A DNA stretch of 64,000 nt, from the NCBI RefSeq assembly GCF_014873915.1, contig NZ_JADBEJ010000005.1, positions 496,001 through 560,000 of the forward strand, read 5' to 3'. The notes under the pieces are model-generated. The model saw nothing but the letters and a program-made list of their open reading frames with translations. It had not been told where the DNA came from and made no database searches. This document shows positions 41,026-63,761 of the stretch, piece by piece. The first letter of the stretch is position 1, and each line of letters begins with the position of its first letter. The position numbers and the translations under genes are program-made. Source of the DNA: Amycolatopsis roodepoortensis. GTDB taxonomy: Bacteria > Actinomycetota > Actinomycetes > Mycobacteriales > Pseudonocardiaceae.

Positions 41026-41073
41026 GCAGCATCGTATCGCTTATCGTATATGAAATTCACCCCCCGATGCTGC
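41026..41073. promoter_or_regulatory. Long-range inverted repeat before the AraC-type gene
   Basis: GCAGCATCG (41026-41034) and CGATGCTGC (41065-41073) with 30 bp between them; the loop contains ATCGTAT twice, 12 bp apart (41031, 41043). It may fold in the leader of the AraC gene or be an autoregulatory site. Confidence 0.45.
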
Positions 41074-41085
41074 GAGGTGACCCCC

Positions 41086-42066
41086 GTGACCACCGCCACC
41101 GCCGACCCGACCACCACCACGGTCGCGCGAGATTTCACCGATTTCCGCACGGTGGTGTCGCAATCCTTCGTGCCGCTGCACGTGACGAGCGAGCACCGGG
41201 ACCACTTCCGCGGCCGTATCCGCTCGTGCGGCGCGGACGACGTCCAGCTGACCGAGGTGACCGCGTCGGCGCACGTGGTCGAACGGACGCCCGAGCTCAT
41301 CGCCAGGGCGGACCGGCACTACTACAAGCTGAGCCTGATCCTGTCCGGGACCGGGCTCTTGGTGCAGGACAACCGCGAGGCGATGCTGCGCCCCGGAGAC
41401 GTGGCGTTGTACGACACGCACCGGCCGTACACCTTGGCGTTCGAAGAGGATTTCCGCACGCTCGTGGTGATGTTCCCGCAGCGGCTCATCGATCTCCCCC
41501 GCGACCTGGTCGGCCAGCTGACCGCGGTGCCCATGTCGGGCAAGCGGGGCATGGGCAACGTGGTGGTGCCCTTCCTCGCGCAACTCGGCAGCAACCTCGA
41601 CCAGCTCGGCGGGCCGGCGGGCGTCCGGCTCGCGCATACGGCGGTCGATCTGCTCGCCACGCTCTTCGCCAGCGAACTGGACCTCGCCCGCGCGACCGCC
41701 GGACCGCACCACGAGCTGATGCGCCGCGTGCTCGCCTACATCGACGCGAACCTCTCCTCCACCGATCTCGGCCCGGCGCAGATCGCCGCCGAGCACTACA
41801 TCTCCACCCGGCATCTGCACGGTCTCTTCCACGAGCAGGGCACGACCGTCTCGGGCTGGATCCGCACCCGGCGGCTCGAACACTGCCGCCGCGAACTGCT
41901 CGACCCGGTGCACAGTTCCCGGCCCGTCGCGGCCATCGCGGCGAAGTGGGGTTTCGTCGACGCGCCGCACTTCAGCCGGGTGTTCAAGACGGAATTCGGC
42001 TGCTCGCCGAGCGAACTGCGCCGCGGCTTGACCGTGAGCGACCGGTTGTTGCCGCCCAGCGCGTGA
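41086..42066 (+). CDS. AraC family transcriptional regulator, FeaR-like
   Basis: 326 residues. An N-terminal AraC-binding-like domain (about 20-190) and a C-terminal double HTH (VLAYIDANLSSTDLGPAQIAAEHYISTRHLHGLFHEQGTTVSGWIRTRRLEHCRREL). This domain pairing is that of FeaR, the activator of the E. coli amine oxidase gene tynA. Start is the GTG at 41086, which follows GAGGTGA at a good distance; an ATG at 41050 lacks a ribosome binding site. It opens the amine-utilisation island and is the likely activator of it. Confidence 0.85.
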   Translation: MTTATADPTTTTVARDFTDFRTVVSQSFVPLHVTSEHRDHFRGRIRSCGADDVQLTEVTASAHVVERTPELIARADRHYYKLSLILSGTGLLVQDNREAMLRPGDVALYDTHRPYTLAFEEDFRTLVVMFPQRLIDLPRDLVGQLTAVPMSGKRGMGNVVVPFLAQLGSNLDQLGGPAGVRLAHTAVDLLATLFASELDLARATAGPHHELMRRVLAYIDANLSSTDLGPAQIAAEHYISTRHLHGLFHEQGTTVSGWIRTRRLEHCRRELLDPVHSSRPVAAIAAKWGFVDAPHFSRVFKTEFGCSPSELRRGLTVSDRLLPPSA

Positions 42067-42106
42067 CGGCTTCCCCTTCGCGGGCGGTCGCCCCGACGAT
42101 GACCGC

Positions 42107-42874
42107 ATGCCCGAAGCACCCGAGGAACAGTGGCGCACCTATGACGAGTTCGCCGCCGGAATAGCCACCTACCGCCTGCCGAACGCGGACCTGTCGGGAC
42201 GCGAGCTCACCGTCACCCTCGACGACGGGAAGACGCTCGCGCTGCGGTTCGAAGACGCTGAAACCGTCACCTGCAACGGCATCAAGGATCCCTACGACGC
42301 GGTCGCCGTCCGGGAAGACGTCTTCTTCGTCAATCTCCCACACACCAGCGTCGAAGGGGAAGCCCTCACCGTCGTCTTCTCCACGACGACACATCGCGCG
42401 CTCGCCGTGCGTTCGGTGATCGGCGCCGAAGACGTCGAAGGCGTTCCCCGTGTCTCCCAGACGTTCTGGTCCGGCACGACCGACGCGGGGACGCCGACCG
42501 GCGAGGTGCCGGGTCCGTCGCGCGACCTGATCGGGAAGCGCAACATCTACCGCTACAGCCCCGAACATCTCTACGAGCACGTGTACGTGTCCTCACAACG
42601 TTATGCCTGGCAATGCCTCGAAGGCGTGCAGCGCGGTCACGGGGACATGGACCTGTCGACGGTGTGGAAGTTCCAGGACGGGCTCTACCTGTTCTGTTTC
42701 CGCGAATTCCGCATCGCCGTCGCCAGCGTGTGGCTGCACGACCTCGGTTACGCGCTGAAGACCACCGGCGTCTTCCTCGGCCTGACCGGCGACGGCCGGT
42801 CGGAACATTCCCGCGCGGGCGGGCACATCTACCCACTCGGCGCCGTCGCCTATCCCGACGCGCAACCGGTCTAA
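42107..42874 (+). CDS. moaF: MoaF family protein (paralogue 1)
   Basis: 255 residues. MoaF-type proteins are named after the Klebsiella monoamine regulon and have no established molybdenum role. Both MoaF proteins of this window share the pattern YEHVYxSxxxYxWQCL (here residues about 160-175) and a preceding beta-rich half with an acidic DDGKTLALRF-like strand. They may bind an amine or small ligand. It follows the FeaR-like gene by 40 bp and precedes an NTF2-like gene and the importer genes on the same strand. Confidence 0.82.
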   Translation: MPEAPEEQWRTYDEFAAGIATYRLPNADLSGRELTVTLDDGKTLALRFEDAETVTCNGIKDPYDAVAVREDVFFVNLPHTSVEGEALTVVFSTTTHRALAVRSVIGAEDVEGVPRVSQTFWSGTTDAGTPTGEVPGPSRDLIGKRNIYRYSPEHLYEHVYVSSQRYAWQCLEGVQRGHGDMDLSTVWKFQDGLYLFCFREFRIAVASVWLHDLGYALKTTGVFLGLTGDGRSEHSRAGGHIYPLGAVAYPDAQPV

Positions 42875-42883
42875 GGAGCCCCA

Positions 42884-43276
42884 GTGTCCAATCTAGACAT
42901 CATCGCCGCGCACTACGCCGCGAGCGACCGGGGAGATCTGGCGGGCATGCTGGCCCCGCTCGGTCCCGCGACGACGTGGACGGAGGCGGCCGGTTTCCCT
43001 TACGCCGGAACGTACACCGGCCCGGAAGAGGTACGCGACAACGTCTTCGGCGCGATCGCGAAGGACTGGGACGGCTACACCTTCACCCTCGGCGACCTTC
43101 ACGACGCCGGTGACACGGTGATCGGCATCGGGACCTATCAGGGCAAGCACCGCGAGACCGGCCGCTCGTTCACCGCCCGCGTCGCGCATGTGTGGAAGTT
43201 CGACGGCGGCAAGGTCTCCTCGTTCGAGCAGATCGTCGACTCCGTACCCGTCGCCGAAGCCATGGGGAACCGGTGA
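42884..43276 (+). CDS. SnoaL/NTF2-like protein
   Basis: 130 residues from a GTG, 9 bp after the MoaF gene. NTF2-like cone fold: a helical start (LDIIAAHYAASDRGDLAGMLAPLG), a beta-sheet region (TYQGKHRETGRSFTARVAHVWKFDGGKVSSFEQIVD). Such proteins are small enzymes or ligand binders, for example SnoaL cyclases and limonene-epoxide hydrolases. Role in the island unknown; the stop overlaps the binding-protein gene by 4 bp. Confidence 0.82.
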   Translation: MSNLDIIAAHYAASDRGDLAGMLAPLGPATTWTEAAGFPYAGTYTGPEEVRDNVFGAIAKDWDGYTFTLGDLHDAGDTVIGIGTYQGKHRETGRSFTARVAHVWKFDGGKVSSFEQIVDSVPVAEAMGNR

Positions 43277-44451
43277 AACCCGCGCGGCGCCTCGTCGCCC
43301 TCGCCTCGGCCGTCCTGCTCGCCACGGCGGGCTGTGCCGGCTCCGAAAGCGGTTCGAGCGGGCCGATCGTGGTCGGTTCGGTCAACGCGCTGAGCGGCGC
43401 GGCGACGTTCCCCGAGGCCTCCCAGGCGGCCAAAGCCGTCTTCGACGCGGCCAACGCGAGCGGCGGCGTGAACGGCAGGCAGATCCAGTACAAGGCCCTC
43501 GACGACAAGGGTGACCCGGCGGCCGCGGCCGCGGCGGCCCGCGAGGTCGTCGGCCGTGACGAGGCGGTGGCGCTCGTCGGCTCGTCCAGCCTCATCGAGT
43601 GCGAGATCAACAACAAGTACTACGAGCAGCAGAAGATCCTGTCCATGCAGGGTATCGGCGTCGACCCGGCCTGTTTCTCCAGCCCGAACATCGCCCCGGT
43701 CAACGTCGGGCCGTACCACGACATGACGCTGACTCTGCTCTACGGCTCGGAAACGTTGAAGCTGAACGACATCTGCGCGCTGCTGGAGATCGCGGGCAAC
43801 ACGCTGCCGTCGTATCAGGCGGCGATCGACGAATGGTCGGCCATCACCGGCAAGAAGCTCAAGTACCTCGACGCGACCGTGCCCTACGGCGGTTCCGACT
43901 ACACCTCCTACATCGTCAAGGCGCGCAACGCGGGCTGCAAGGCGATCACGGTCAACCCGGTCGAGCCGGATTCCATCGGACAGCTCAAGGCCGCCGCGGC
44001 GCAGGGCTGGAACGACGTCACGTGGCTGCTGCTCACCAGCGTCTACAGCGAGAACTACGCCAAGGCCATCACGAACGCCGGCGCCGGGGTGTACGTGCCC
44101 GCCGAGTTCTACCCGTTCACCGACGCGACCAGCCCGCAGAACAAGGACTGGCGCGAGCTGATGACCAAGAACAACATCCCGCTGACCTCGTTCAGCCAGG
44201 GCGGTTACCTGGCGGCGAAGTACTTCCTCGACGTCATCCGCGGGATCCAGGGTGACATCACCCGCGAGTCGGTGACCAAGGCACTGCGCGAGATGAAGCC
44301 GATCACCGATCCGATGGTCGGGACGCCGTACGTCTTCGGTCCCGGTCAGACGCACCACGACAACACCGCGGGCTGGCCGATCAAGCTCGCCTCCGGCACC
44401 AACAAATGGGAGCTCGTCGCGAACGACTGGCTGCGGATTCCCAAGAAGTAG
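43273..44451 (+). CDS. Substrate-binding lipoprotein of a branched-chain-type ABC importer
   Basis: 392 residues from a GTG overlapping the previous stop. Lipoprotein signal with cysteine at 21 (LLATAGC). Peripla_BP_6 (type I) fold with PIVVGSVNALSGAATFPEASQAAKAVFDAANASGGVNGRQIQ at the start. It captures an extracellular ligand and delivers it to the permeases encoded downstream. A family A palindrome separates it from the permease gene. In this context the ligand may be an amine rather than leucine. Confidence 0.87.
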   Translation: MKPARRLVALASAVLLATAGCAGSESGSSGPIVVGSVNALSGAATFPEASQAAKAVFDAANASGGVNGRQIQYKALDDKGDPAAAAAAAREVVGRDEAVALVGSSSLIECEINNKYYEQQKILSMQGIGVDPACFSSPNIAPVNVGPYHDMTLTLLYGSETLKLNDICALLEIAGNTLPSYQAAIDEWSAITGKKLKYLDATVPYGGSDYTSYIVKARNAGCKAITVNPVEPDSIGQLKAAAAQGWNDVTWLLLTSVYSENYAKAITNAGAGVYVPAEFYPFTDATSPQNKDWRELMTKNNIPLTSFSQGGYLAAKYFLDVIRGIQGDITRESVTKALREMKPITDPMVGTPYVFGPGQTHHDNTAGWPIKLASGTNKWELVANDWLRIPKK

Positions 44452-44467
44452 GTCGTACTGGCCGGGT

Positions 44468-44513
44468 CTCGTGAGTGGTAAGGGCGGTTAGAACCGTCCT
44501 TACCACTCACGAG
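44468..44513. repeat. 46-bp palindrome, 22-nt arms (family A, copy 2)
   Basis: CTCGTGAGTGGTAAGGGCGG and its complement around AG, with one mismatch. It lies inside the transporter operon, between the binding protein and permease genes, where it could cap the 3' end of an abundant binding-protein transcript or attenuate downstream transcription. Confidence 0.85.
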
Positions 44514-44536
44514 CTCCCCTCATACAGGAGGATTCG

Positions 44537-45397
44537 ATGCTGCAGGGAGCGCTGGCAGGCCTGGCCGCCGGCGGACTGTACGCGGTGTTGGCGGTGTGCC
44601 TGACGCTGATGTCGCGCCTGGTGCGGGTGGTGAACTTCGCCCAGTCGGCCACCGGGATGTTCGGCTGCTACGTGGCGGTGTTCTTGTCCGTCCACGCGGG
44701 ACTGCCGACGTGGCTGGCCACGGTGGCGGGAATCCTGCTCGGCGGGCTGCTGAGCGCGCTGCTCGGCTGGATCGTGTCCACCTGGCTCGCCGAGGCGGAC
44801 ACCGGCACCCGCTCGGCGGTGACCGTGGCGGTGCTGCTCCTGCTGATCTCGTTGTCGTTCATCCTGTTCGGCAACAAGCCGCAGCCGTTCCACCCGATCC
44901 TGGACGGTCCGGCGGTCACCGTCGGCGGCGTGGTGATCAGCCAGGTCACCGTGGTCACGGTCGCGCTGGCCGTCCTCGTCGCGGTGGCCAGCCGGATCGT
45001 GCTGAGCCGGACCCCGGCGGGCGTCCAGCTCCGGGCGCTGTCGGAACGCCCGACGACGGCGGAACTGCTGGGCATCCCGGCGAAACGGCTCAGCGTCGCG
45101 GTCTGGGCGGTCACCGGGGTGGTCAGCACACTGGTGATCTCGATCGTGGCGCCGTCGCAGTCCAACGACGCGACGTCGCTGGCGATGCTGGTGGTCCCCG
45201 CGGCCGCGGCCGCCCTGCTCGGCGGATTCCGCCGTCTCGACCTCGCGGTCGCGGGCGGGCTGGGCCTCGGCCTGATCCAGGGCGCGGCCGCACAGGTCGA
45301 CGGCCTTTCGGTGGTGCGGTACTTCCTGCCGTTCGCAGTGATCGTCGCGCTGCTGCTCTGGTCGCAGCGCAAGGAGGTGTGGGATGCGGCTCGCTGA
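44537..45397 (+). CDS. Branched-chain-type ABC permease (LivH-like)
   Basis: 286 residues with about eight membrane helices and the typical N-terminal pattern (LAGLAAGGLYAVLAVCLTLMSRLVRVVNFAQSATGMFGCYVAV) and EAA-like loop (ALSERPTTAELLGIPAKRLSVAVWAVTG). AGGAG precedes the ATG. Overlaps the next gene by 14 bp. One half of the membrane channel. Confidence 0.9.
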   Translation: MLQGALAGLAAGGLYAVLAVCLTLMSRLVRVVNFAQSATGMFGCYVAVFLSVHAGLPTWLATVAGILLGGLLSALLGWIVSTWLAEADTGTRSAVTVAVLLLLISLSFILFGNKPQPFHPILDGPAVTVGGVVISQVTVVTVALAVLVAVASRIVLSRTPAGVQLRALSERPTTAELLGIPAKRLSVAVWAVTGVVSTLVISIVAPSQSNDATSLAMLVVPAAAAALLGGFRRLDLAVAGGLGLGLIQGAAAQVDGLSVVRYFLPFAVIVALLLWSQRKEVWDAAR

Positions 45398-47087
45398 ACG
45401 CGGGATCCCGTTCGCGGTCGCCATCGTGGCGATCGCCGCGGGTTACGGCCTGAGCGTCGGGCTCGACGGGTACTTCGTCTACCTCGGCATGAGCGCCGTC
45501 GTCGCCGGGATCTCCCTGCTCGGGCTCGGCGTGGTGACCGGCAGCGCCGGCATGATCTCCCTGTGCCAGCTGACTTTCGGTGCCGTCGGCGCCTGGACCG
45601 TGTCGGCGCTGAACGAGGCACAGGCTCCCGGCGGATTCCTCACCTGGCTGGTGCTCGGCGGTCTCGCCGCCGGGGTGGTCGGGGTGCTCGTCGGGCTGCC
45701 GGCGCTGCGGCTGCGCGGGATCAACCTCGCCGTCGTCACGCTGGGGCTAGCCGCGGCCGCCGACCTTGCGCTGGTCCAGCTCCAGTTCCCCGGGGTCTCG
45801 AGCGGGATCTCGGTCGAACGGCCGGACGCCTTCTCCGACGACCGGTCCTATTTCCAGCTCGCCGTCGTGGTGCTGGTGCTGTGCTGCCTCGCCGTGTACT
45901 TCCTGCGCCGCGGCCGCTGGGGCAGCGCCTGGCAGGCGGTGGCGTTCTCCGAACGCGGCACGGCGGCCGCGGGCACGAGCGTGCGGATGTCGAAGCTGAC
46001 CGCGTTCGCGGTGAGCGCCACCCTCGGCGGGATCAGCGGCGGCCTGCTCACCGGGCAGGTCGGGCTCGCCTTCCCGGCGAGTTTCACCGCGATCCAGTCG
46101 CTGGCGCTGTACGTGCTGGCGATCATGTCGGGCGCGCACCTGATCGACATGGCCGTGTTCGGCGCGGTGCTGTGGGTCGGCGTTCCGGAACTGCTCAAAC
46201 GCTGGGGAATCCCGCAGGACTGGGGTTTCGTGGTGTTCGGTGTGCTCGGCGTCCAGGCGCTGGCCAGTGGCGGGAACCTGGGCACCACGGTGCGCCAGGT
46301 GTGGTACCGGCGGGCCAAGAAGGAACCGGCGAGACTCGATCTCGCGGCCGGTACCTCGGTCATCGAAGCCAAGACGCCCGGTCCGCCGGTGCTCACCGTC
46401 CGCGGGCTGAGCGTGAACTTCGGCCACGTGGCGGCACTGTCCTCAGTGGACATATCGGTCCCGGAGCACGGGGTGCTCGGCGTCATCGGGCCGAACGGCG
46501 CGGGCAAGTCGACGCTGGTCGACGCGATCAGCGGCTTCCTGCCGAACGCCGAGGGCTCCGTCGAACTCGGGGGCGTCCCGCTCACCGGGTCACCGTCGAA
46601 CCGGGCCCGCGCCGGGTTGCGCCGGACGTTCCAGCAGGACCGCGTCCCGCCGGGGCTGACGGTCGGGGCGTATCTCAAGTTCCTCGCCAGGCGGCGGCTC
46701 ACCGCCGACGAGATCGGCGACGCCCTGGACTTCTTCGGCTGCCCCGCCGCCCGCACCCCACTGTCGCAAGTGGACGTCGGCGCGCGCAGGCTGGTCGAGG
46801 TCGTCGGGCATCTGCTGGCGCGGCCGCGGGTCCTGCTGCTCGACGAGCCCGCCGCGGGTCTTCCGCACGAAGAACACGTCGCGTTCGGGGAACGACTGCG
46901 CCAGGTTCCCGCCCGGTTCGGGGTGTCGGTGCTGCTCATCGAGCACGATCTCGACCTGGTGCGCTCGGTCTGCGACACGATCACCGTCCTCGACTTCGGC
47001 CGTGTGCTGGCCTCCGGCCCCCAGGCCGAGGTGCTCGCCGACCCCGCCGTGCTCAAGGCGTACATGGGTGAAACGGAGATGCTGTGA
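45384..47087 (+). CDS. Fused LivM-LivG: ABC permease joined to ATPase
   Basis: 567 residues. Residues about 1-300 are a LivM-like permease (GLGVVTGSAGMISLCQLTFGAVGAW, and the loop WQAVAFSERGTAAAGTSVRMSKLTAFAVSATLGGISGG); residues about 330-567 are a LivG-like ATPase with Walker A GPNGAGKST near 368 and Walker B VLLLDEPAAGL. Separate genes are usual; the fusion links permease and ATPase in one chain. It overlaps livH-like and livF-like genes. Confidence 0.9.
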   Translation: MRLAERGIPFAVAIVAIAAGYGLSVGLDGYFVYLGMSAVVAGISLLGLGVVTGSAGMISLCQLTFGAVGAWTVSALNEAQAPGGFLTWLVLGGLAAGVVGVLVGLPALRLRGINLAVVTLGLAAAADLALVQLQFPGVSSGISVERPDAFSDDRSYFQLAVVVLVLCCLAVYFLRRGRWGSAWQAVAFSERGTAAAGTSVRMSKLTAFAVSATLGGISGGLLTGQVGLAFPASFTAIQSLALYVLAIMSGAHLIDMAVFGAVLWVGVPELLKRWGIPQDWGFVVFGVLGVQALASGGNLGTTVRQVWYRRAKKEPARLDLAAGTSVIEAKTPGPPVLTVRGLSVNFGHVAALSSVDISVPEHGVLGVIGPNGAGKSTLVDAISGFLPNAEGSVELGGVPLTGSPSNRARAGLRRTFQQDRVPPGLTVGAYLKFLARRRLTADEIGDALDFFGCPAARTPLSQVDVGARRLVEVVGHLLARPRVLLLDEPAAGLPHEEHVAFGERLRQVPARFGVSVLLIEHDLDLVRSVCDTITVLDFGRVLASGPQAEVLADPAVLKAYMGETEML

Positions 47088-47779
47088 ACGCGTTGCGGAT
47101 AGCGGGGCTGACGGTCACCCGCGGTGCCGGGCCGGTGATCTCCGGGGTCGACCTGACCCTGGAACCGGGCCGGATCACCGCGCTCGTCGGCCCGAACGGC
47201 GCCGGGAAGACCAGTCTGCTGGAGGCCGTCTCGGGCGTGGTGCCCGCGTCGGCAGGCACCGTCCACATCGGATCCGACGAGATCACGAAGCACTCGCGGG
47301 TCGCCCGCGCGCGGCGGGGTCTGGCGCATATCGAGCAGGGTCGTGCGGTGTTCGGCGGCCTGACCGTGCTGGAGAACCTGATGCTGACCGCGCGCACCCG
47401 CGCGCGGGCCGACGAACTGTTCGAGCTGTTCCCGGAACTGGAGAAGCGCCGCGATTCGCCGGCGGCGCTGCTCAGCGGAGGTGAACAGCAGATGGTGGTG
47501 CTGGCCCGCGCGTTCGCCGCGCGGCCGTCGTTCCTGCTGATCGACGAGATGTCGCTCGGCCTCGCGCCCGTGGTGTTCACGCGACTGCTGCCGATGGTGA
47601 CGCGGTTCGCCGAGGAGGGCACGGCGATCCTGCTGGTCGAGCAGTTCACGCAGCTCGCGCTCGGCGTGGCGAGCGACGCGCTGGTGGTGTCTTCGGGGCG
47701 GGTGACCTATGCGGGTTCCACGCAGGGCTTGCTGGACTCCCCCGGCACCCTGCACGCGGCCTACCTCGGCGAATCCTGA
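47084..47779 (+). CDS. Branched-chain-type ABC ATPase (LivF-like)
   Basis: 231 residues from a GTG (4-bp overlap). Walker A GPNGAGKTS, signature LLSGGEQQMVVLARAF, Walker B FLLIDEMSLGLAP and His switch VEQFTQL. It completes the importer as the second ATPase. The gene is followed directly by a family B palindrome. Confidence 0.92.
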   Translation: MNALRIAGLTVTRGAGPVISGVDLTLEPGRITALVGPNGAGKTSLLEAVSGVVPASAGTVHIGSDEITKHSRVARARRGLAHIEQGRAVFGGLTVLENLMLTARTRARADELFELFPELEKRRDSPAALLSGGEQQMVVLARAFAARPSFLLIDEMSLGLAPVVFTRLLPMVTRFAEEGTAILLVEQFTQLALGVASDALVVSSGRVTYAGSTQGLLDSPGTLHAAYLGES

Positions 47780-47780
47780 A

Positions 47781-47835
47781 GCGCGTGAAGGCCCCCTTCC
47801 CTCGGCTGAGCCGAGGGAAGGGGGCCTTCACGCGC
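47781..47835. repeat. 55-bp perfect palindrome, 26-nt arms (family B)
   Basis: GCGCGTGAAGGCCCCCTTCC continuing into CTCGGC, a TGA loop, and the exact complement. It starts 2 bp after the LivF-like stop and ends 5 bp before the stop of the convergent SDR gene, so it is well placed as a bidirectional terminator. Confidence 0.88.
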
Positions 47836-47840
47836 ACCTA

Positions 47841-48638
47841 CTAAGAACCCATCCCCGCCCGTTCGAACGCCAGCGTCGGCAGATCGACCGCATGCGCGCC
47901 GCCGTCCGCCACGATCACCGCACCGGTGATGTACGAAGACTCCGAAGAGCCCAGGAACCGCACGATCGACGCGATCTCCTCCGGTTCGGCGGGACGGCGC
48001 AGCGGGACCTCGGCGGTCACGCGCCGGTAGCCCTCGTCGTGTCCGCCGTCGAAGCCCGCCGCCTCGGCGAACTGGTCCATCTCACCGTCCGCCATCGGCG
48101 TGCGCACCCAGCCGGGGCAGACCGCGTTCGCACGAACACCCTTCGGCCCGTAGTCGCGGGCGATCGAGCGCGTCAACCCGATCAGCGCGTGCTTCGCGAC
48201 GGTGTAGCCGGCGACGTTCGGCCCGGCGAACAGCCCGGCCAGCGACGACACGATGACCACCTGGCCGCCGGTCTCGACCAGCGAGGGCAGCGTGGCCCGG
48301 CAGAACACGAAGGCGCTGGACAGGTTCGAGCGCAGCGCCAGTTCCCATTCCTCGTCACCGGTGTCGACCACCGACGACAGGCCGTGGCCGCCGGCGTTGG
48401 CCACCACGACGTCCAGCCTGCCGAACTTGCCGACGATCTCCGCCGTGGCGTTCTCGGCGGCTTCGCGGTCGCTGGCGTCGCAGGCGACGACGTGCGCGCC
48501 GGTTTCGGCGGCCACCTTCTCCAGCGGTTCGAGCCGCCGTCCGAGCACCACCACCTGGGCGCCTTCGTCGGCGTACCGGCGGGCGACCGCGGCCCCGATA
48601 CCGGTACCGCCTCCCGTGATCGCGACAACCTTCTTCAC
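47841..48638 (-). CDS. Short-chain dehydrogenase/reductase
   Basis: 265 residues from a GTG after AAGGA. Classical SDR: cofactor site TGGGTGIGAAVAR, NAGG after strand 4, catalytic Ser in VSSLAG, Tyr/Lys in YTVAKHA. The protein is probably NAD(P)-dependent. It lies with a second SDR gene, transcribed toward the importer genes and divergent from the amine oxidase. It could handle an alcohol or aldehyde arising in this route; that is an inference. Confidence 0.9.
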   Translation of the reverse strand: MKKVVAITGGGTGIGAAVARRYADEGAQVVVLGRRLEPLEKVAAETGAHVVACDASDREAAENATAEIVGKFGRLDVVVANAGGHGLSSVVDTGDEEWELALRSNLSSAFVFCRATLPSLVETGGQVVIVSSLAGLFAGPNVAGYTVAKHALIGLTRSIARDYGPKGVRANAVCPGWVRTPMADGEMDQFAEAAGFDGGHDEGYRRVTAEVPLRRPAEPEEIASIVRFLGSSESSYITGAVIVADGGAHAVDLPTLAFERAGMGS

Positions 48639-48652
48639 TTGCGGAGTCCTTT

Positions 48653-49372
48653 CTAAGCGGGAAAACCGGAGCGGGCCGAGACGCCGAAGTCGGCGAGCAC
48701 GGCCTGGCCGTTGACCGCCCGCGAACGCGCGGACGCGAGGTGGAGCACCTGCCAGGCGACCTCTTCGGGAGCCTGCACCGGGAAGGCGGGATCGTCGAGC
48801 ACGTCGCCGAGATCGCCGCGCGCCATCGGGGTGTCGACCACCGACGGGCAGACGCAGTTCACCCGGACGCCGGGAAGATCGACGGCGAGAGCCCTGGTCA
48901 TCGCGACCACGGCGCCCTTCGAAGCGCAGTACGGGACCATGCCGGGCGCACTGGTGAACGCCGAGTCGCTGGCCAGCAGCACGACCGAGCCACCCGACGC
49001 GGTAAGCCACGGAGCGGCGTGTTTGACCAGCAGGAACTGGCCGGTGACGTTGACGGCCATGAGCGCGGCGAAATCCGCCGCCGAGGTCTCGGTGACCGGT
49101 GTGCCCACCGGGCCGGAGATCCCCGCGCAGCCGACCACCACGTCGAGTCCGCCGAACCGGCTCGCCACGGCGTCGACCGCGGCAGCGATCGACGGCTCGT
49201 CGGTCACGTCGGCCTCGAGCGCCAGGAGACCGTCGGCCAGCGTGGGCACGGGTGCCCGGTCGAGGGCGCCGACCCGCGCGCCCTCGGCGAGGAAGGCCTG
49301 GACGCAGGCAAGGCCGATACCGGACGCCGCGCCGGTCACCAGCACGGCCTTGCCCGCGAAATCCAGTCCCAT
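48653..49372 (-). CDS. Short-chain dehydrogenase/reductase
   Basis: 239 residues from an ATG after GGAGGA. SDR motifs: TGAASGIGLACVQ, CAG (in place of NAG) after strand 4, Ser in LLASDSAF and Tyr/Lys in YCASKGA. It precedes the other SDR by 14 bp in the same transcription unit. The 114-bp gap to the amine oxidase gene is the divergent promoter region. Confidence 0.9.
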   Translation of the reverse strand: MGLDFAGKAVLVTGAASGIGLACVQAFLAEGARVGALDRAPVPTLADGLLALEADVTDEPSIAAAVDAVASRFGGLDVVVGCAGISGPVGTPVTETSAADFAALMAVNVTGQFLLVKHAAPWLTASGGSVVLLASDSAFTSAPGMVPYCASKGAVVAMTRALAVDLPGVRVNCVCPSVVDTPMARGDLGDVLDDPAFPVQAPEEVAWQVLHLASARSRAVNGQAVLADFGVSARSGFPA

Positions 49373-49486
49373 GGCGTCATCCTCCGGTCCGGACCTTTCA
49401 CGGAGGTTGGCCGTCAGTGCACCCTTCTTGTCGGCAGCCGCACGACGGCCTTTCCAGTCCCGGCCGGACCGGCAAGACTGCGAACC

Positions 49487-51352
49487 ATGACCAGGCCGCA
49501 TCCACTCGACCCGCTGACCGCCGACGAACTCACCGCAGGCCGCGAGATCCTGGCCGCCGAAGGCCTGCTCGCCGCGTCCACGCGGTTCCCCGCCGTGCTG
49601 CCGGTGGAGCCCGAGAAAGGTGACGCCGCGCCCGACCGCCGTGTCCAGTACACGTTGCTCGACACCGCGACCGGCCGCGCGCGTGACGTGGTCGTCTCGC
49701 TCGCGAAACGCGAAGTGGTCTCCAGCGAGGACTGTGGCCCAGGTCAGCCCGCGTACCTGTTCGAGGAGTACGACCTCGCCGCGTCGATCACCAAGGCGTC
49801 ACCCGAATGGCAGGCCGCGATGGAGCGGCGCGGGCTCGGCGACCGGATCGGGCACGCCTTCTGCGCTCCCCTGGCCCCCGGTTTCTTCGGCAGGGCCGAC
49901 GAGACCGGCCGGGTCATCCGCTCGCTGACGTTCCTGCGCGACGACGCGTCCGACAGCCCGTGGGCGCATCCGGTCGAGGGCCTGATCGTCCACATCGACC
50001 TGACCGGCCAACGCGTCATCCGAGTGGAGGACGAGGGCGACGTCCCGGTGCCGCCGGAGCACGGCCGCTACGACGGTGTCCCGGCCCGCACCACCCTCAA
50101 GCCGATCGAGATCACCCAGCCGGAGGGCCCGAGCTTCACCGTCGACGGCAACGAGGTCACCTGGGAGGGCTGGAAACTCCGCGTCGGCTTCAACGCCCGC
50201 GAGGGTCTGACGCTGCACCAGGTCTCGTTCCAGGACCGTTCGGTGCTCCACCGGGCCTCGGTACCGGAGATGGTGGTGCCCTACGGCGACACCGCGCCCG
50301 GCCGGTTCTGGATCAGCTACTTCGACGCGGGCGAGTACCTGCTCGGCAAGAACGGCAACGACCTGCGCCTGGGTTGCGACTGCCTCGGCGTCATCCACTA
50401 CTTCCCCGCGTTCGTCGCCGACGACCACGGCCACCCGGTCGAGATCCCGCGTGCGATCTGCATGCACGAGGAGGACTACGGGATCCTCTGGAAGCACACG
50501 GATCTCGACGGCCGCGCCGAGGTCCGCCGCTCCCGTCGGCTGGTGATCTCGTCGATCTCCACCATCGGCAACTACGACTACGGCTTCTTCTGGTACCTCT
50601 ACCTCGACGGCACCGTGGAACTGGAGGCGAAGGCCACCGGAGTCGTGTTCGCCGGCGCCGCGCACCCCGGCACGGAGCACCCGCACGCCAACGAGATCGC
50701 CCCCGGCCTGTTCGCGCCGGTGCACCAGCACCTGTTCTGCGCGCGGCTGGACGTCGCGATCGACGGCGAACGCAACTCACTCGTCGAGGTCGACGTCGAA
50801 CGGATCCCCGTCGGCGAGCAGAACCCGTACGGGAACGCGTTCACCTGGAAGGAAACCCCATTGCGGACCGAACAGGAGGCGCGGCGGTTCGCGGATCCGG
50901 CCAAGGCGCGTGTCTGGGAGATCCGCAGCGCGGACCGGACCAACCGGCTCGGCAAACCCACGGCGTACCAGCTCGTGCCGCGGCCGTCCGCGACCCTGAT
51001 GGCGCAGCCGGAATCGACCGTCCATCAGCGGGCGACGTTCGCCACCCGGCACCTGTGGGCGACGCCGTACCGCGCCGGCGAACGGTTCCCGGCGGGCGAC
51101 CGCCCGAACGCGCATCCGGGTGGTGCGGGCCTACCCGCCTGGACCGCCGCCGACCGCGACCTCACCGACACCGATCTCGTGCTGTGGCACGTGTTCGGGC
51201 CGACCCATATCCCGCGTCCGGAGGACTGGCCGGTCATGCCGGTCGACTACTCCGGTTTCTCCTTGCGCCCCTACGGCTTCCTGGACCGAAACCCGGCCCT
51301 CGACCTGCCTTCCGGCGCTGCCGACGACCACTGTTCCGCCCACGAGCACTAG
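49487..51352 (+). CDS. Copper amine oxidase (topaquinone enzyme)
   Basis: 621 residues, the usual length of bacterial/yeast-type amine oxidases. The TPQ precursor is Tyr363 in TIGNYDYGF, copper ligands are His413 and His415 (HQHLF) and His574 (THIPRPEDW), and the probable base is Asp280 (YFDAGE). The enzyme converts a primary amine with O2 to aldehyde, ammonia and H2O2. No signal peptide is visible, so it is cytoplasmic. No catalase is in the island. It is followed by MoaF paralogue 2, 10 bp away. Confidence 0.95.
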   Translation: MTRPHPLDPLTADELTAGREILAAEGLLAASTRFPAVLPVEPEKGDAAPDRRVQYTLLDTATGRARDVVVSLAKREVVSSEDCGPGQPAYLFEEYDLAASITKASPEWQAAMERRGLGDRIGHAFCAPLAPGFFGRADETGRVIRSLTFLRDDASDSPWAHPVEGLIVHIDLTGQRVIRVEDEGDVPVPPEHGRYDGVPARTTLKPIEITQPEGPSFTVDGNEVTWEGWKLRVGFNAREGLTLHQVSFQDRSVLHRASVPEMVVPYGDTAPGRFWISYFDAGEYLLGKNGNDLRLGCDCLGVIHYFPAFVADDHGHPVEIPRAICMHEEDYGILWKHTDLDGRAEVRRSRRLVISSISTIGNYDYGFFWYLYLDGTVELEAKATGVVFAGAAHPGTEHPHANEIAPGLFAPVHQHLFCARLDVAIDGERNSLVEVDVERIPVGEQNPYGNAFTWKETPLRTEQEARRFADPAKARVWEIRSADRTNRLGKPTAYQLVPRPSATLMAQPESTVHQRATFATRHLWATPYRAGERFPAGDRPNAHPGGAGLPAWTAADRDLTDTDLVLWHVFGPTHIPRPEDWPVMPVDYSGFSLRPYGFLDRNPALDLPSGAADDHCSAHEH

Positions 51353-51362
51353 GAATTCTTCG

Positions 51363-52154
51363 ATGCCCGAACTGACCCTGTCCGACACGTCCACCTGGCT
51401 GCCGCTGGACGGTCTGGCCCCCGGTTTCGACGCGAACAAGGCGCCCACGGTCGGCGACCTGCACGGCCGCACCTTCGAACTCGCCTGTGAAGACGGCACC
51501 ACGTTCACCGCGGCCTTCTCCGGCACCCGGATCGAGTGGACCTACCACGGCACGGGCACCGACCGCTGCGAAACGTTCCTGGTAGACGACGACCTCTACT
51601 ACGTCCAGTTCCATCCGCAGGCCCGCCAGGACGAGGCGTTCACCCTGCTGCTGGACCTGCGCCGCGGCCGCGCACTCCTGGTGCTGAGCAAGATCGGTGA
51701 CACCTCGCCCCGCGTCACGCAGTCCTTCGTGGCCGCCACGATCGGCGGTATCGAGCCGACCGGGGAATCGCTCGCCCCGACCACGTCGCTGGTCGGCCGC
51801 CGGGTGCTATGGGTGTACAGCACCGAGCACGCCTACGAGCACGTTTACCTCAGCCCGCACTGGTACACGTGGCAGTGCCTGGCGGGCCCGGAGCGAGGAC
51901 TCGCGGACACCGACGAGAACTCGGTCTACGAGCTGCGGCCGGGAATCTACGTCTTCGCCTGGCGGGAGAAGGTGATCCCGTGCGCCTCGGTGACCGTCGC
52001 CGACCATCGGGACGCGAAACGGCTGCGCTCGCACGGTGTCCTTTTCGGACTGGACGCCACCGGGAGCACACCGACCCACTTCACCTTCGGCGCGCACGGC
52101 AAGCTGCTGAGCACCACCGTGCACCCCGAGGCCTACGACCCGGCAGGGAGCTGA
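51363..52154 (+). CDS. moaF: MoaF family protein (paralogue 2)
   Basis: 263 residues, full MoaF length, directly after the copper amine oxidase gene. Shares the pattern YEHVYxSxxxYxWQCL with paralogue 1 (here THE/TEHAYEHVY...). The two have diverged strongly elsewhere. The position next to an amine oxidase matches the Klebsiella monoamine regulon in which moaF was first described. Function not established. Confidence 0.82.
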   Translation: MPELTLSDTSTWLPLDGLAPGFDANKAPTVGDLHGRTFELACEDGTTFTAAFSGTRIEWTYHGTGTDRCETFLVDDDLYYVQFHPQARQDEAFTLLLDLRRGRALLVLSKIGDTSPRVTQSFVAATIGGIEPTGESLAPTTSLVGRRVLWVYSTEHAYEHVYLSPHWYTWQCLAGPERGLADTDENSVYELRPGIYVFAWREKVIPCASVTVADHRDAKRLRSHGVLFGLDATGSTPTHFTFGAHGKLLSTTVHPEAYDPAGS

Positions 52155-52157
52155 GCC

Positions 52158-53792
52158 TTGACCGCCGACATCGTCCTCACCAACGCCACGGTATACACAG
52201 TGGACGGTCACCGGCCCTGGGCGTCGTCGCTGGCGATCAAGGACGGGAAGGTGCTGTCGCTGGAGGACATCGAACGCGGCCCGAGCACCGAGGTCGTCGA
52301 CCTCGACGGCGCGTTCGTGATGCCCGGCCTGGTCGACGTGCACAACCATCACGCCCTGGCCGGACGCGCGGCCCTGTTCGAGCTGAACTTCGGCGCCGAC
52401 GCCGGGCTGGACGACATCCTGGCGGCCGTCCGCTCGAGGGCCGCGGGGCTCGGACCGGACGAATGGGTCGTGGGCGGCGCCTGGGCGTCCACTTTGGTCG
52501 CCACTCTTTCGCGAGCCTCAGCCCGGCACGCGCTCGACGAGGCCGCCGGCGGACGCCCCGTCATGCTGTCCGACGACAGCAGGCACAACCGCTGGGTGAG
52601 CAGCCGGGCGTTGGAACTGGCGGGAGTCACCGCCTCGACGTCCGATCCAGTGGGCGGGGAGATCGTCCGCGACCCCTCGACCGGGGAGCCGGTCGGAGTC
52701 CTGCTCGAAGCGGCGGGCGTCGCCGTCGAGCGGGCCCTCAGCGAGACACGGACGCTCACCGCGGAGCAGCACGTCGCGGCGTCGCGGCACGGGATCGGCA
52801 CGCTGCACTCGTACGGCGTCACCGCGTTCCAGGACGCCGGGGTCTCCGCGGACATCCTGGGCGCGCTCAAGGCGCTCGACGACGCGGGCGAACTGCACGC
52901 CTGGGTGGTTTCGTCACTGCTGATCAACGACCCGATCTTCGGTTTCGACCCGATCGGGGCACCGTTGCTGGAAGTCGCCGGGCAGTACCGGAGCGAGCAT
53001 CACCGGCCGGACTTCGTGAAGATCTTCCTCGACGGGGTGCCGCCGACGCGGACAGCCGCCTTCCTGGAGCCGTACCTGCCGGACGCCGCGCACGGAGCCT
53101 GCCATCACGGCGCCACCACCATGCCGGGTGAGGAACTCGTCGGCTGGTTGCGCACGGCGGCCGCGGCGGGGCTCTCGGCCAAGGTCCACTGCACCGGGGA
53201 CGCTTCGGTGCGCGCGACGCTCGACGCCGTCGAGAAGGTGCGCGCCGAGGGCTTCACGGAGGCGCGGTTCCAGGTCGCGCACGGCCAGTTCGTCCATCCC
53301 GACGACCTCCCGCGGTTCGCCGCGCTGGGCGTCGCCGCGGACATCTCGCCGTTCCTGTGGGTCCCGGGTGTCATCCCGGCGGCCATCGCCGAGGTCCTGC
53401 CCGGCGAGCGGGCCGGGCGGATGCAGCCGAACCGGTCGCTGCTCGACGAGGGCGCGCTGGTCGCGGGTGGTTCGGACTGGCCGGTCAGCGAGTCGCCGAA
53501 CGCTTGGGAAGGCATCCACGGCCTCGTCACGCGTCAAGATCCGACCGGCACGTTCCCCGGCGCGCTGTGGCCGGAGCAGGCGATCACCTTGGACGAGGCG
53601 ATCGAGGTCTTCACCCTCGCCGCCGCCCGCGCGATGGGGCTGGGCGACGTCACCGGCTCGCTGGCGCCCGGCAAGTCGGCGGATTTCGTCGTCCTGGACC
53701 GTGATCCGTTCCGAACCGATCCGTCCGCGCTCGTCAAGACAAAGGTGACGGAAACGTGGTTCGCCGGGCACCGCGTGTATCACCAGGCCTGA
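52158..53792 (+). CDS. YtcJ-like metal-dependent amidohydrolase
   Basis: 544 residues, usual for the YtcJ/AtzC-like amidohydrolase group. Features are the metal-binding HNHHA (in LVDVHNHHALAG), KVHCTGD, VAHGQF and SDWPVS with the C-terminal beta-domain (GSLAPGKSADFVVLDRDPF). Starts at TTG, 3 bp after MoaF. Could cleave an amide (for example N-formyl or N-acetyl amine) so that the amine can be oxidised; that is an inference. Confidence 0.87.
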   Translation: MTADIVLTNATVYTVDGHRPWASSLAIKDGKVLSLEDIERGPSTEVVDLDGAFVMPGLVDVHNHHALAGRAALFELNFGADAGLDDILAAVRSRAAGLGPDEWVVGGAWASTLVATLSRASARHALDEAAGGRPVMLSDDSRHNRWVSSRALELAGVTASTSDPVGGEIVRDPSTGEPVGVLLEAAGVAVERALSETRTLTAEQHVAASRHGIGTLHSYGVTAFQDAGVSADILGALKALDDAGELHAWVVSSLLINDPIFGFDPIGAPLLEVAGQYRSEHHRPDFVKIFLDGVPPTRTAAFLEPYLPDAAHGACHHGATTMPGEELVGWLRTAAAAGLSAKVHCTGDASVRATLDAVEKVRAEGFTEARFQVAHGQFVHPDDLPRFAALGVAADISPFLWVPGVIPAAIAEVLPGERAGRMQPNRSLLDEGALVAGGSDWPVSESPNAWEGIHGLVTRQDPTGTFPGALWPEQAITLDEAIEVFTLAAARAMGLGDVTGSLAPGKSADFVVLDRDPFRTDPSALVKTKVTETWFAGHRVYHQA

Positions 53793-53799
53793 TCTCCTA

Positions 53800-53819
53800 C
53801 ACTGGTAGAAGAACCAGTG
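53800..53819. promoter_or_regulatory. Putative operator before the TetR gene
   Basis: CACTGGT-N6-ACCAGTG, an inverted repeat between the amidohydrolase stop and the TetR start. Likely autoregulatory site. Confidence 0.55.
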
Positions 53820-53833
53820 CGGGAGGTCTGCCG

Positions 53834-54421
53834 ATGCCGAAGATCATCGACCACGACGAGCGGCGCAGCCATATCGTCGACGTCACCTGGGATTTGATCA
53901 CCCAGGGCGGGATCGAGGCCGCCACCATGCGCGAGATCGCGGCGGCCGCCGGCTTCGCCAACGGCGCGCTCAAGCTGTACTTCCCGAGCAAGGAAGACAT
54001 CATCCAGGCGACCTACGAACGCGCGCTCGGCATGATGCGGGAGTACGTGGAGCTGGACGAGCTACGCGGGCTGACCGCGCTCCGCGAGCTGTGCGTCTCG
54101 TCGATGCCGATCGACGAGGACCGCATCGCCGCGGGGCGTGTCCTGCTCACCTTCTGGCAGCTTTCGCTGACCAACCCGAAACTGCAGGACAAGTACCTCG
54201 AGCACATCCGCTCGTGGCGGGGCCTGCTGCACCGGTACCTCACCGAGGGCCGGGAAGACGGCGACATCGTCACCGAGACCCCCGACGAGCAGCTGGTCGA
54301 CGAGGTCGTGCTGATCAACGCCGGGGCGAACGTGATGAGCCTGGTCGCCGGGGAGTTCTCGACGGTCGCCCTGCAGCGGCAGCACCTCGAATCCTTCTTC
54401 GAGCGCCTCACCCGCCCCTGA
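53834..54421 (+). CDS. TetR family transcriptional regulator
   Basis: 195 residues from an ATG after GGGAGG. HTH (IVDVTWDLITQGGIEAATMREIAAAAGFANGALKLYFPSKEDII) followed by a helical ligand domain. A dyad (53800-53819) lies just upstream. It ends the amine-oxidase transcription unit and may act together with the FeaR-like activator in regulating the island. Confidence 0.9.
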   Translation: MPKIIDHDERRSHIVDVTWDLITQGGIEAATMREIAAAAGFANGALKLYFPSKEDIIQATYERALGMMREYVELDELRGLTALRELCVSSMPIDEDRIAAGRVLLTFWQLSLTNPKLQDKYLEHIRSWRGLLHRYLTEGREDGDIVTETPDEQLVDEVVLINAGANVMSLVAGEFSTVALQRQHLESFFERLTRP

Positions 54422-54639: not shown

Positions 54640-54663
54640 CCGCATTCAGAGGACGAAATGCGG
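54640..54663. repeat. Third family C unit at this locus, overlapping the esterase 3' end
   Basis: A 24-bp copy of CCGCATyCAGAgGACGAA. The esterase stop codon (54646-54648) and last codons lie inside it. Confidence 0.75.
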
Positions 54664-56573: not shown

Positions 56574-56603
56574 GGGTGCCTCCTCAGCTCGTTTCGGTCG
56601 AGA

Positions 56604-56619
56604 GTCTACAGACGTAGAC
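56604..56619. promoter_or_regulatory. CTAC-N4-GTAG operator, site 1
   Basis: GTCTAC-AGAC-GTAGAC, a perfect dyad upstream of the O-methyltransferase gene. The same dyad core occurs at three more positions in this island. Confidence 0.6.
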
Positions 56620-56679
56620 AAAAGAATCCAGTGCGAATTTTCGCCCACTGCCAGGGAAAACCCGCCGGATATCAACTTC

Positions 56680-56691
56680 CTACATTCGTAG
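56680..56691. promoter_or_regulatory. CTAC-N4-GTAG operator, site 2
   Basis: CTAC-ATTC-GTAG in the middle of the divergent region between the O-methyltransferase and ABC importer genes. Confidence 0.55.
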
Positions 56692-56701
56692 AATATACCC
56701 A

Positions 56702-56736
56702 TTGACAGCGCACTCCCCCAGTGTCAACATGCGTAG
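56702..56736 (+). promoter_or_regulatory. Promoter of the peptide-type ABC operon with operator site 3
   Basis: TTGACA, 17-bp spacer and CAACAT. The imperfect operator CAAC-ATGC-GTAG (56725-56736) covers the -10 and start point, consistent with repression. Confidence 0.5.
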
Positions 56737-56806
56737 AACTACCCCCGCCGGAGGTCCGTTCCCCGGCAGTGCGGCCCGCTCCGGGCGGGCTCGGGAAAGG
56801 GGATTC

Positions 56807-63710: not shown

Positions 63711-63725
63711 GAGATTTCCTTTCGC

Positions 63726-63761
63726 TGGCAACGGAAACCAGTTTTAGTCTACGATCGTAGA
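63726..63761 (+). promoter_or_regulatory. Promoter and CTAC-N4-GTAG operator (site 4) of the SDR gene, probably leaderless
   Basis: TGGCAA, an 18-bp spacer and TACGAT (63750-63755), with the start codon at 63762 seven bases downstream, so the mRNA may begin at the ATG. The perfect operator TCTAC-GATC-GTAGA (63748-63761) overlaps the -10 and abuts the ATG. No ribosome binding site is visible. Confidence 0.55.

Follow-up and report, generated by a model that had tools for sequence, protein, structure and literature searches.

Two types of MoaF protein in a probable aromatic-amine catabolic island of Amycolatopsis roodepoortensis

The stretch of Amycolatopsis roodepoortensis DNA considered here (64,000 nucleotides, contig NZ_JADBEJ010000005.1, positions 496,001 to 560,000; this whole stretch is referred to as the window) contains, between about 41 and 54 kb, an island of genes for a copper amine oxidase, two proteins of the MoaF family and a dedicated importer, and the question that it raises is which compounds the island degrades and what the MoaF proteins contribute to this. 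The assignment of the island to a pathway for aromatic amines, as read from its genes, is well supported. That its substrates are p-hydroxyphenyl-ethylamines (the tyramine family, probably with beta-hydroxylated members such as octopamine), on which MoaF acts as an acid-base enzyme, is a narrower reading to which we would give about an even chance, and the reaction suggested for MoaF, which is based on a structural model, is put forward as a testable inference. In an earlier note on this DNA, the region had been described as an amine-utilisation island with a FeaR-like activator, an amine oxidase, two MoaF proteins, an importer, an NTF2-like protein, short-chain dehydrogenases/reductases (SDRs) and an amidohydrolase. 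All of these genes were found by domain scans, at the following coordinates:

41050-42066 (or from a GTG start at 41086), plus strand: AraC-family activator, FeaR-like (AraC_binding_2 and HTH_18)
42107-42874, plus strand: MoaF1 (PF10703, 72.9 bits; PF17409, MoaF_C, 122.5 bits)
42884-43276, plus strand: SnoaL/NTF2-like protein directly 3' of moaF1 (SnoaL_2)
43273-44451, plus strand: Liv-type substrate-binding protein (Peripla_BP_6; inferred start, with a 4-base overlap with snoaL)
44537-45397, plus strand: Liv-type permease, LivH (BPD_transp_2)
45384-47087, plus strand: Liv-type permease-ATPase fusion, LivM-LivG (BPD_transp_2 and ABC_tran)
47084-47779, plus strand: Liv-type ATPase, LivF (ABC_tran)
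47841-48638, minus strand: SDR1 (domain and family matches; 53% identity to the Rhizobium etli SDR beside MoaF)
48653-49372, minus strand: SDR2 (domain and family matches)
49373-49486: intergenic region between the start codons of the divergent sdr2-sdr1 and amine oxidase genes; a probable promoter region
49487-51352, plus strand: TPQ copper amine oxidase of AGAO/phenylethylamine-oxidase type (NF008559 and catalytic motifs)
51363-52154, plus strand: MoaF2 (MoaF 128.6 bits, MoaF_C 158.2 bits; C-terminal domain modelled with the fold of phenolic acid decarboxylases)
52158-53792, plus strand: amidohydrolase of the Amidohydro_3 family (Pfam domain)
53756-54421, plus strand: TetR-family regulator (Pfam domain)

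The membership of MoaF1 and MoaF2 in this family is clear, as both score above the curated cut-offs of PF10703 (23.3) and PF17409 (22.1). The oxidase matches NF008559 with 821.4 bits against a cut-off of 651, which places it among the AGAO-type enzymes, and over its residues 8-619 it matches the Arthrobacter phenylethylamine oxidase (PDB 1rjo and relatives) with 615 bits; the substrate of the window enzyme is a prediction from this likeness. It carries (in a 624-residue frame) the motifs NYD at 365, YFDAGEY at 281, HQH at 416 and WHVFGPTH at 570, which we take to hold the TPQ tyrosine (in NYD), the catalytic Asp, the HxH and the third His. The top NCBIfam match of the AraC-family regulator is NF007243, but its score of 160.7 bits lies below the cut-off of 199, and therefore this protein is described as FeaR-like only. 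The gaps between araC, moaF1, snoaL and the importer genes are small or negative (40, 9, -4, 85, -14 and -4 bases), due to which these genes are likely to form one operon, whereas the oxidase, moaF2, amidohydrolase and tetR genes appear to constitute a second operon, divergent from sdr2-sdr1. Both minus-strand SDRs were masked by longer open reading frames in a plain list of such frames. For the amidohydrolase, a role as N-formamide deformylase is conceivable, but the PDB gave just distant relatives. In the host genome of 9.1 Mb, there is one copper amine oxidase and there are three MoaF_C matches. The third of these, located elsewhere (G000:C1:823694-823888; L003, L047), is a partial match of 24.8 bits in a 211-residue frame, and comparable partial matches occur in other genomes of the genus; in the 17 kb around it, a weak ABC ATPase match was the only one to the island proteins.

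The same gene order is found in other genera, and due to this the island is more than a chance assembly. When genome contigs were scanned with a MoaF profile, 352 relatives were confirmed. The best 80 were retained, under 20 genus labels of which one is 'unknown', and the set of loci is thus biased towards close kin; the loci, with genes called by a simple GC-frame script and assigned by BLAST, reach at most 10 kb to each side of MoaF2, and the partner counts are lower bounds. Within this distance an SDR is the steadiest partner (72/80), followed by the amidohydrolase (60/80, in 58 of the 80 directly downstream of MoaF2) and the Liv genes (53/80). The oxidase and TetR genes are each present in 37/80 loci, MoaF1 and SnoaL in 35/80 each, AraC in 33/80, an O-methyltransferase and an amino-acid permease in 30/80 each, an aldehyde dehydrogenase in 25/80, a GMC oxidoreductase in 22/80 and an Opp ATPase in 18/80. 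For MoaF1, the gene directly downstream is snoaL in 34/35 cases. The module is thus widespread and recurs across actinobacteria, and the linkage of MoaF, oxidase and importer, for which the earlier note had recommended a search, is seen in at least 53 of the 80 loci for the importer and in at least 37 for the oxidase. In a genome of the same genus (G076), the halves araC-moaF1-snoaL-Liv and sdr-sdr-oxidase-moaF2-amidohydrolase-tetR are about 0.9 Mb apart, and therefore the two halves represent separable modules. The presence of the oxidase changes 13 times over 77 rows of the MoaF2 tree; however, because the loci hold at most 10 kb on each side, this is not taken as evidence. One example is L098, which seems oxidase-free, yet a longer stretch of what is apparently the same genome (G505) contains an oxidase about 10 kb from moaF2.

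Several other genes were observed beside MoaF in these loci. In L098, L100, L103, L116, L123 and L131, MoaF has beside it a gene from one cluster of related sequences, whose tested member (from L098) is a sulfatase (PF00884), and most of these loci also have a transporter cluster of NMT1/BPD type; the sulfatase resembles the arylsulfatase of the Klebsiella monoamine regulon, and use of tyramine sulfate is a possibility. A fusion of an iron-type alcohol dehydrogenase with a catechol dioxygenase adjoins moaF2 in Actinokineospora (L066:10779-12689, also L068 and L070), and a fusion of a flavin amine oxidase with a cupin lies near MoaF and two SDRs in genome G057 (L046:13216-14931). A fusion of FAA hydrolase with an RraA-like domain is found near a MoaF island at L069:15466-16896; its cluster also occurs in L074, L085, L092, L112 and L132 and has a 60% match in L168. 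Several of these loci have GntR and DHDPS-family genes, and they look like a variant of a lower hpa-type pathway.

The two MoaF proteins of the island represent two types, which on the tree appear to have been long separated. In a quick tree of 114 MoaF rows (without L045, eight Amycolatopsis loci that are nearly identical and MoaF rows shorter than 225 or longer than 330 residues), MoaF1 forms one clade of 28 rows (support 96), which joins the MoaF proteins of R. etli, Agrobacterium and Roseateles and that of P. aurescens, the last on a long branch (99), while MoaF2 of the actinobacterial islands forms a separate clade of 74 rows (99). The rest of the tree consists of the Klebsiella, Pseudomonas, Azoarcus and Arthrobacter YC-RL1 proteins and of divergent actinobacterial sequences (L032, L044, L046); the deep joins are unsure because several long branches meet there. 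MoaF1 is usually accompanied by SnoaL and the Liv importer, and MoaF2 by the amidohydrolase and often the oxidase. With two old types that have their own partners, a role in two related substrates or steps fits better than a recent duplication.

Among 200 genomes of the order, MoaF is present in 14 and copper amine oxidase in 69, and all 14 MoaF genomes have the oxidase; counted by genus, where the genera are not fully independent, it is present in 6/6 MoaF genera against 25/60 (p 0.0035). However, in 5 of the 14 (G004, G039, G099, G132 and G192, draft assemblies whose contig order is not given) the oxidase and MoaF are separated by more than 100 kb or are on different contigs, whereas the distance is about 14 kb in G057. 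A draw of 346 genomes from the phylum added three MoaF genomes, and the oxidase is about 6 kb from MoaF in one (G207) and less than 2 kb in another (G505). Further, 42 plasmid records have a MoaF match, of which 12 were inspected, the Burkholderia one being unannotated there. In the 11 annotated stretches around MoaF, where the gene tables are incomplete, an SDR is present in 10 (the exception is Arthrobacter YC-RL1) and an amino-acid permease in 5, and a copper amine oxidase is annotated in none. That MoaF is tied to a copper amine oxidase in its neighbourhood is therefore not supported, and in other loci a flavin amine oxidase or class III aminotransferases are found near MoaF.

The genes for homoprotocatechuate (hpa) degradation provide a link to the ring that is degraded. 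HpaD scores above the cut-off in 16 of the 200 genomes of the order, viz. in 9/14 with MoaF and 7/186 others (by genus 3/6 MoaF genera against 6/60 overall, p 0.010). In the relative G076, where HpaD is above the cut-off, a set of genes for hpaB/hpaC-like proteins (which share 30 and 35% identity with HpaB and HpaC of Agrobacterium), an FAH-RraA fusion, GntR, hpaE, hpaD, hpaH and hpaI (hpaE/D/H/I at 43-52% identity) stands directly before sdr1-sdr2-oxidase. Three rhizobial plasmids carry in one run genes for 5-carboxymethyl-2-hydroxymuconate isomerase, hpaE, hpaD, gabD, a protein of the fumarylacetoacetate-hydrolase family, hpaH, hpaI, an SDR, MoaF and NTF2, followed after NTF2 on the opposite strand by AraC, a Liv importer, GMC, aldehyde dehydrogenase, a regulator and HpaR. 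Identities of the R. etli proteins to those of the window are 45% for MoaF (with MoaF1), 51% for NTF2 (with SnoaL) and 53% for the SDR (with SDR1), and an SDR of a P. aeruginosa plasmid is 57% identical to SDR1. In the host genome itself, HpaD, HpaE and an HpaB_N protein are above their cut-offs, all within 8.3 kb. Based on the hpa outlet and the AGAO-type oxidase, p-hydroxyphenyl-ethylamines are the likely substrates.

The island also exceeds the limits given above, as conserved genes continue from 54646 to the end of the window and for about 8.7 kb more. Those in the window are the following:

54646-55671, minus strand: esterase-type alpha/beta hydrolase (Abhydrolase_3; within 10 kb of moaF2 in 17/80 loci)
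55587-56702, minus strand: O-methyltransferase (Methyltransf_2; 30/80 loci)
56702-58549, plus strand: Opp-type double ATPase (18/80 loci)
58546-60126, plus strand: Opp-type substrate-binding protein (SBP_bac_5)
60123-61067, plus strand: Opp-type permease B (BPD_transp_1)
61064-61984, plus strand: Opp-type permease C (BPD_transp_1)
62021-62713, plus strand: second alpha/beta hydrolase (Abhydrolase_1; relatives in 12 loci)
62769-63731, minus strand: aldo/keto reductase (relatives in 11 loci)
63762-64000, plus strand: third SDR, which continues beyond the window (by similarity, stretch L151)

Past the window, where genes were assigned by similarity to Pfam-typed relatives, the third SDR is followed in L151 by genes for amidohydrolase 2, a zinc-alcohol dehydrogenase, an aldo/keto reductase, an esterase, a GMC oxidoreductase, an aldehyde dehydrogenase and GntR. 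The aldehyde dehydrogenase is located at the window-equivalent positions 70573-72006, 6.6 kb outside the window, at a distance of about 19 kb from the copper amine oxidase; the HpaE model matches it with 446 bits, below its cut-off, in a match that overruns the stop codon by two codons. The earlier statement that no aldehyde dehydrogenase is visible is thus correct within the window, but one is present in the same gene run, and due to this it is not necessary for the SDRs, which had been suggested as its substitute, to carry out the aldehyde step. Amine utilisation as such, on the other hand, is supported by the AGAO-type oxidase with its motifs, the FeaR-like regulator, the importer, the conserved linkage, this aldehyde dehydrogenase and the hpa genes. 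Just upstream of the island, a cytochrome P450 (36214-37725), which is found again at this place in genomes of the same genus, is followed by a luciferase-like monooxygenase (37786-38751). The tRNA-Gly called by ARAGORN at 31100-31182 is inside a well-scored frame of 770 residues (30948-33260) and is probably a false positive.

The evidence regarding MoaF itself comes mainly from its fold and its conserved residues. The model of MoaF2 is of high quality (pLDDT 94.7, pTM 0.91); that of MoaF1, built from 21 close sequences, was poor (pLDDT 64.3) and was not used. The best structural match of MoaF2 is the MoaF protein of Burkholderia cenocepacia (PDB 4q51, titled putative molybdenum cofactor biosynthesis protein F; Z 34.1, 32% identity), followed by 5hal (Z 14.7). 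Below these, all of the following 17 rows are taken up by decarboxylases of phenolic or ferulic acid, which match the C-terminal domain of MoaF2 with Z 10.3-13.1 over 108-118 residues (root mean square deviation 2.0-2.7, but 3.7 for 2w2a), and avidins come below them (Z at most 10.0); in Foldseek alone, the decarboxylases likewise take the next rank (E 0.001 and above). The C-terminal domain of MoaF2 thus has the fold of phenolic acid decarboxylases (PADs). In the same register by phmmer and hhalign, W146, Y148, Y154 and E198 of MoaF2 (numbered in a 259-residue frame, 4 less than in the full protein) correspond to Tyr11, Tyr13, Tyr19 and Glu64 of PAD. Over 133 MoaF rows (114 of the tree set and 19 of alignment A6, two sets that overlap), six residues, viz. 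Arg, Tyr, Tyr, His, Tyr and Glu, including Y148, Y154, H156 and E198, are invariant in 133/133, and two of them are at PAD catalytic positions (the equivalents of Tyr13 and Glu64). However, unlike in PADs, both MoaF domains align with the PAD sequences, position 146 is variable (Trp in 77 rows, Tyr in 48, Phe in 8), Arg is found in none of the 133 rows at position 176, opposite PAD Arg41, and MoaF has an invariant His/Arg set of its own; the full PAD catalytic set of Tyr11/Tyr13, Arg41 and Glu64 is thus absent from MoaF. As MoaF retains Glu64 and Tyr13 and an aromatic residue at Tyr11 but lacks the Arg, a hydro-lyase or isomerase is proposed rather than a decarboxylase. According to PMC5488193 and PMC10116590, PADs hydrate 4-hydroxystyrene at the benzylic carbon via a quinone methide, where the phenol loses its proton to the Tyr pair and Glu transfers protons; in the enzyme from Enterobacter, changing Glu72 to Ala, Tyr19 to Phe or Tyr21 to Phe abolishes activity, whereas the Tyr27 to Phe variant is active with one nucleophile and gives lower conversion with another. 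By offset, these Glu72, Tyr19, Tyr21 and Tyr27 correspond to Glu64, Tyr11, Tyr13 and Tyr19 of the Bacillus PAD.

Based on the gene content and its conservation, the fold and conserved residues of MoaF and the hpa genes of a relative, the pathway would run as follows. The two ABC importers would take up the amine, either free or in a bound (for instance N-acylated) form from which the amidohydrolase and the esterases could release it. The copper amine oxidase would convert it to the arylacetaldehyde, NH3 and H2O2, the aldehyde dehydrogenase outside the window would oxidise the arylacetaldehyde to 4-hydroxyphenylacetate, and the HpaB/D/E route of the genome would degrade this further. The MoaF-SDR core, with or without SnoaL, would handle side chains that are beyond the reach of the oxidase and aldehyde dehydrogenase. 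In MoaF, a Tyr would activate the phenol and the invariant Glu would shift protons at the side chain to give a p-quinone methide, so that water (or the amine) could be lost or added at the benzylic carbon; possibly, the enzyme takes the beta-hydroxyl off octopamine-type amines or aryl glycols, and the SDRs would determine the stereochemistry of this carbon or how far it is oxidised. There are three hints that the side chain of the substrate is beta-oxygenated. One P. aeruginosa plasmid encodes a 2,4'-dihydroxyacetophenone dioxygenase in the vicinity of MoaF, and L096 contains a 71% relative. In both R. etli and P. aurescens, MoaF has an APH-family kinase and a class III aminotransferase at a distance of up to about 5-10 kb, and L091 and L094 contain relatives of these; the aminotransferase is of the PRK06148/06149 type, whose models match by their C-terminal part and below cut-off. 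Kinase-lyase pairs act on amino alcohols. Finally, tyramine, dopamine, octopamine and norepinephrine are among the inducers of the Klebsiella tyramine oxidase named in PMC6813237. The boldest form of this proposal, that MoaF is a new enzyme class with a duplicated PAD-like fold, a benzylic hydro-lyase acting via a p-quinone methide on amines of the octopamine, synephrine and norepinephrine type or on their aryl glycols, is quite doubtful.

A number of results weigh against the narrower reading, in which MoaF acts on p-hydroxyphenyl-ethylamines. One MoaF genome of the phylum draw (G380) has no copper amine oxidase, 5 of the 14 MoaF genomes of the order have no HpaD above the cut-off, a genome of the same genus (G118) has HpaD but neither MoaF nor the oxidase, and the hpa genes of the host are on another contig than the island. 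A beta-hydroxylated substrate is proven by no locus. PF05870 (PAD) is not among the Pfam matches of MoaF1 or MoaF2 at E 0.01, and the likeness in sequence is weak by phmmer (E 0.48) and, for the C-terminal domain, by hhalign (E 0.0036, probability 9%). A broader MoaF set matches PAD best with the N-terminal domain (E 1.6e-5, probability 79%), as do five of six PADs against the MoaF profile. The MoaF2 clade has Trp at the Tyr11 position; in the Enterobacter enzyme, each member of the Tyr11/Tyr13 pair is essential, and the equivalent of the conserved Tyr19 (Tyr27 there) appears non-essential. A common fold, moreover, is no proof of a common reaction.

The gene content also has to be considered under other explanations. 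The island could be a plain one for tyramine or phenylethylamine, in which the oxidase is followed by the aldehyde dehydrogenase or SDRs, MoaF is an accessory and no beta-hydroxylated substrate is involved; the AGAO-type oxidase and FeaR-like activator agree with this, as do two PaaA_PaaC proteins (phenylacetate) above cut-off in the host genome. However, it leaves unexplained why two MoaF types, SnoaL and two SDRs are kept in loci with no oxidase nearby (Actinokineospora G132 and G192), and we regard it as rather unlikely. It is unlikely, too, that MoaF is a non-catalytic, lipocalin-like binder that sequesters the aldehyde or carries the amine: avidin-type barrels match the model, but they are outscored by the PAD rows, and such a binder does not account for six residues that are invariant throughout the MoaF rows and of which two coincide with PAD catalytic positions.

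A different interpretation detaches MoaF from amines, in that the MoaF-SDR-SnoaL-Liv core would degrade a non-amine phenolic compound (an aryl glycol, hydroxytyrosol or a lignin-type C2/C3 compound) and the oxidase would be just a frequent neighbour. The rhizobial loci, which consist of this core with GMC, aldehyde dehydrogenase and hpa genes, are in accordance with it, the stretches of R. acidisoli and Agrobacterium have no annotated deaminase (in incomplete gene tables), and the present island has GMC and aldehyde dehydrogenase genes as well. However, the invariable presence of a copper amine oxidase in the MoaF genomes of the order, and elsewhere of amino-acid permeases, a flavin amine oxidase or aminotransferases near MoaF, makes this very doubtful. 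It is highly improbable that the island is part of a biosynthetic cluster; the P450, the luciferase-like protein and the O-methyltransferase could be read in this way, but the presence of two importers and, in G076 and the rhizobia, of hpa genes next to the module speaks for catabolism.

In kind, an island for aromatic-amine catabolism is ordinary and has known relatives, but it is an informative variant of them. The Klebsiella monoamine regulon (atsBA, maoCA, moaEF, tyn; MoaR) shares with it the combination of MoaF and an amine oxidase in one regulon, and a K. variicola plasmid locus has the order HTH regulator, APC permease, DUF3156, MoaF and SDR. In Klebsiella, moaEF is presumably an operon of MoaF and an SDR, and MoaR a regulator of LuxR type. 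In contrast, here the two MoaF proteins belong to other clades, the SDRs are divergent from the moaF2 operon, the regulators are of FeaR-like AraC and TetR types with no LuxR domain found in the Pfam scan of the island genes of the window, the importers are of Liv and Opp types, and a SnoaL partner, an amidohydrolase, esterases and an O-methyltransferase are also present. The FeaR-TynA-FeaB system of E. coli, as described in PMC4640556, likewise consists of an AraC-type activator, a copper amine oxidase and an aldehyde dehydrogenase; it differs in that MoaF_C is absent from all 14 control genomes, E. coli included, and that here the aldehyde dehydrogenase is distant from the oxidase, hpa seems to serve as the outlet and paa is present as well. 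A literature search pairing MoaF with 'amine oxidase' found no publication, and the MoaF publications found by a search that covered papers outside subscription journals give no reaction; in their accessible parts, they concern a MoaF promoter construct in a LuxR-solo study, the moaEF operon by name (including PMC6813237) and Serratia MoaF-domain proteins in a vaccine screen. A search for genes of octopamine or synephrine degradation gave no title on point among the papers listed; PMC10816480 concerns the hydroxylation of octopamine by HpaBC variants. For the clusters of ephedrine and pseudoephedrine dehydrogenases, sought as a parallel, the papers listed gave no gene cluster to compare.

Several public records label MoaF as a molybdenum-cofactor biosynthesis protein, and the evidence here places it instead in aromatic-amine catabolism. 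What these results contribute is the looser tie between MoaF and the oxidase, the aldehyde dehydrogenase and larger extent of the island, the homoprotocatechuate link and a hypothesis for MoaF at the level of residues. The MoaF substrate is narrowed to likely p-hydroxyphenyl C2 compounds, and the chemistry suggested for it is falsifiable with named residues. Octopamine hydro-lyase and synephrine dehydratase (EC 4.2.1.87/88), which dehydrate a p-hydroxyphenyl beta-hydroxyamine to the arylacetaldehyde, are not known to have an assigned gene, and a MoaF hydro-lyase, if true, would supply genes for both activities. It would also explain the clearance of beta-hydroxylated biogenic amines by soil bacteria, add a lyase scaffold for biocatalysis and give a real role to the proteins now labelled molybdenum cofactor protein F.

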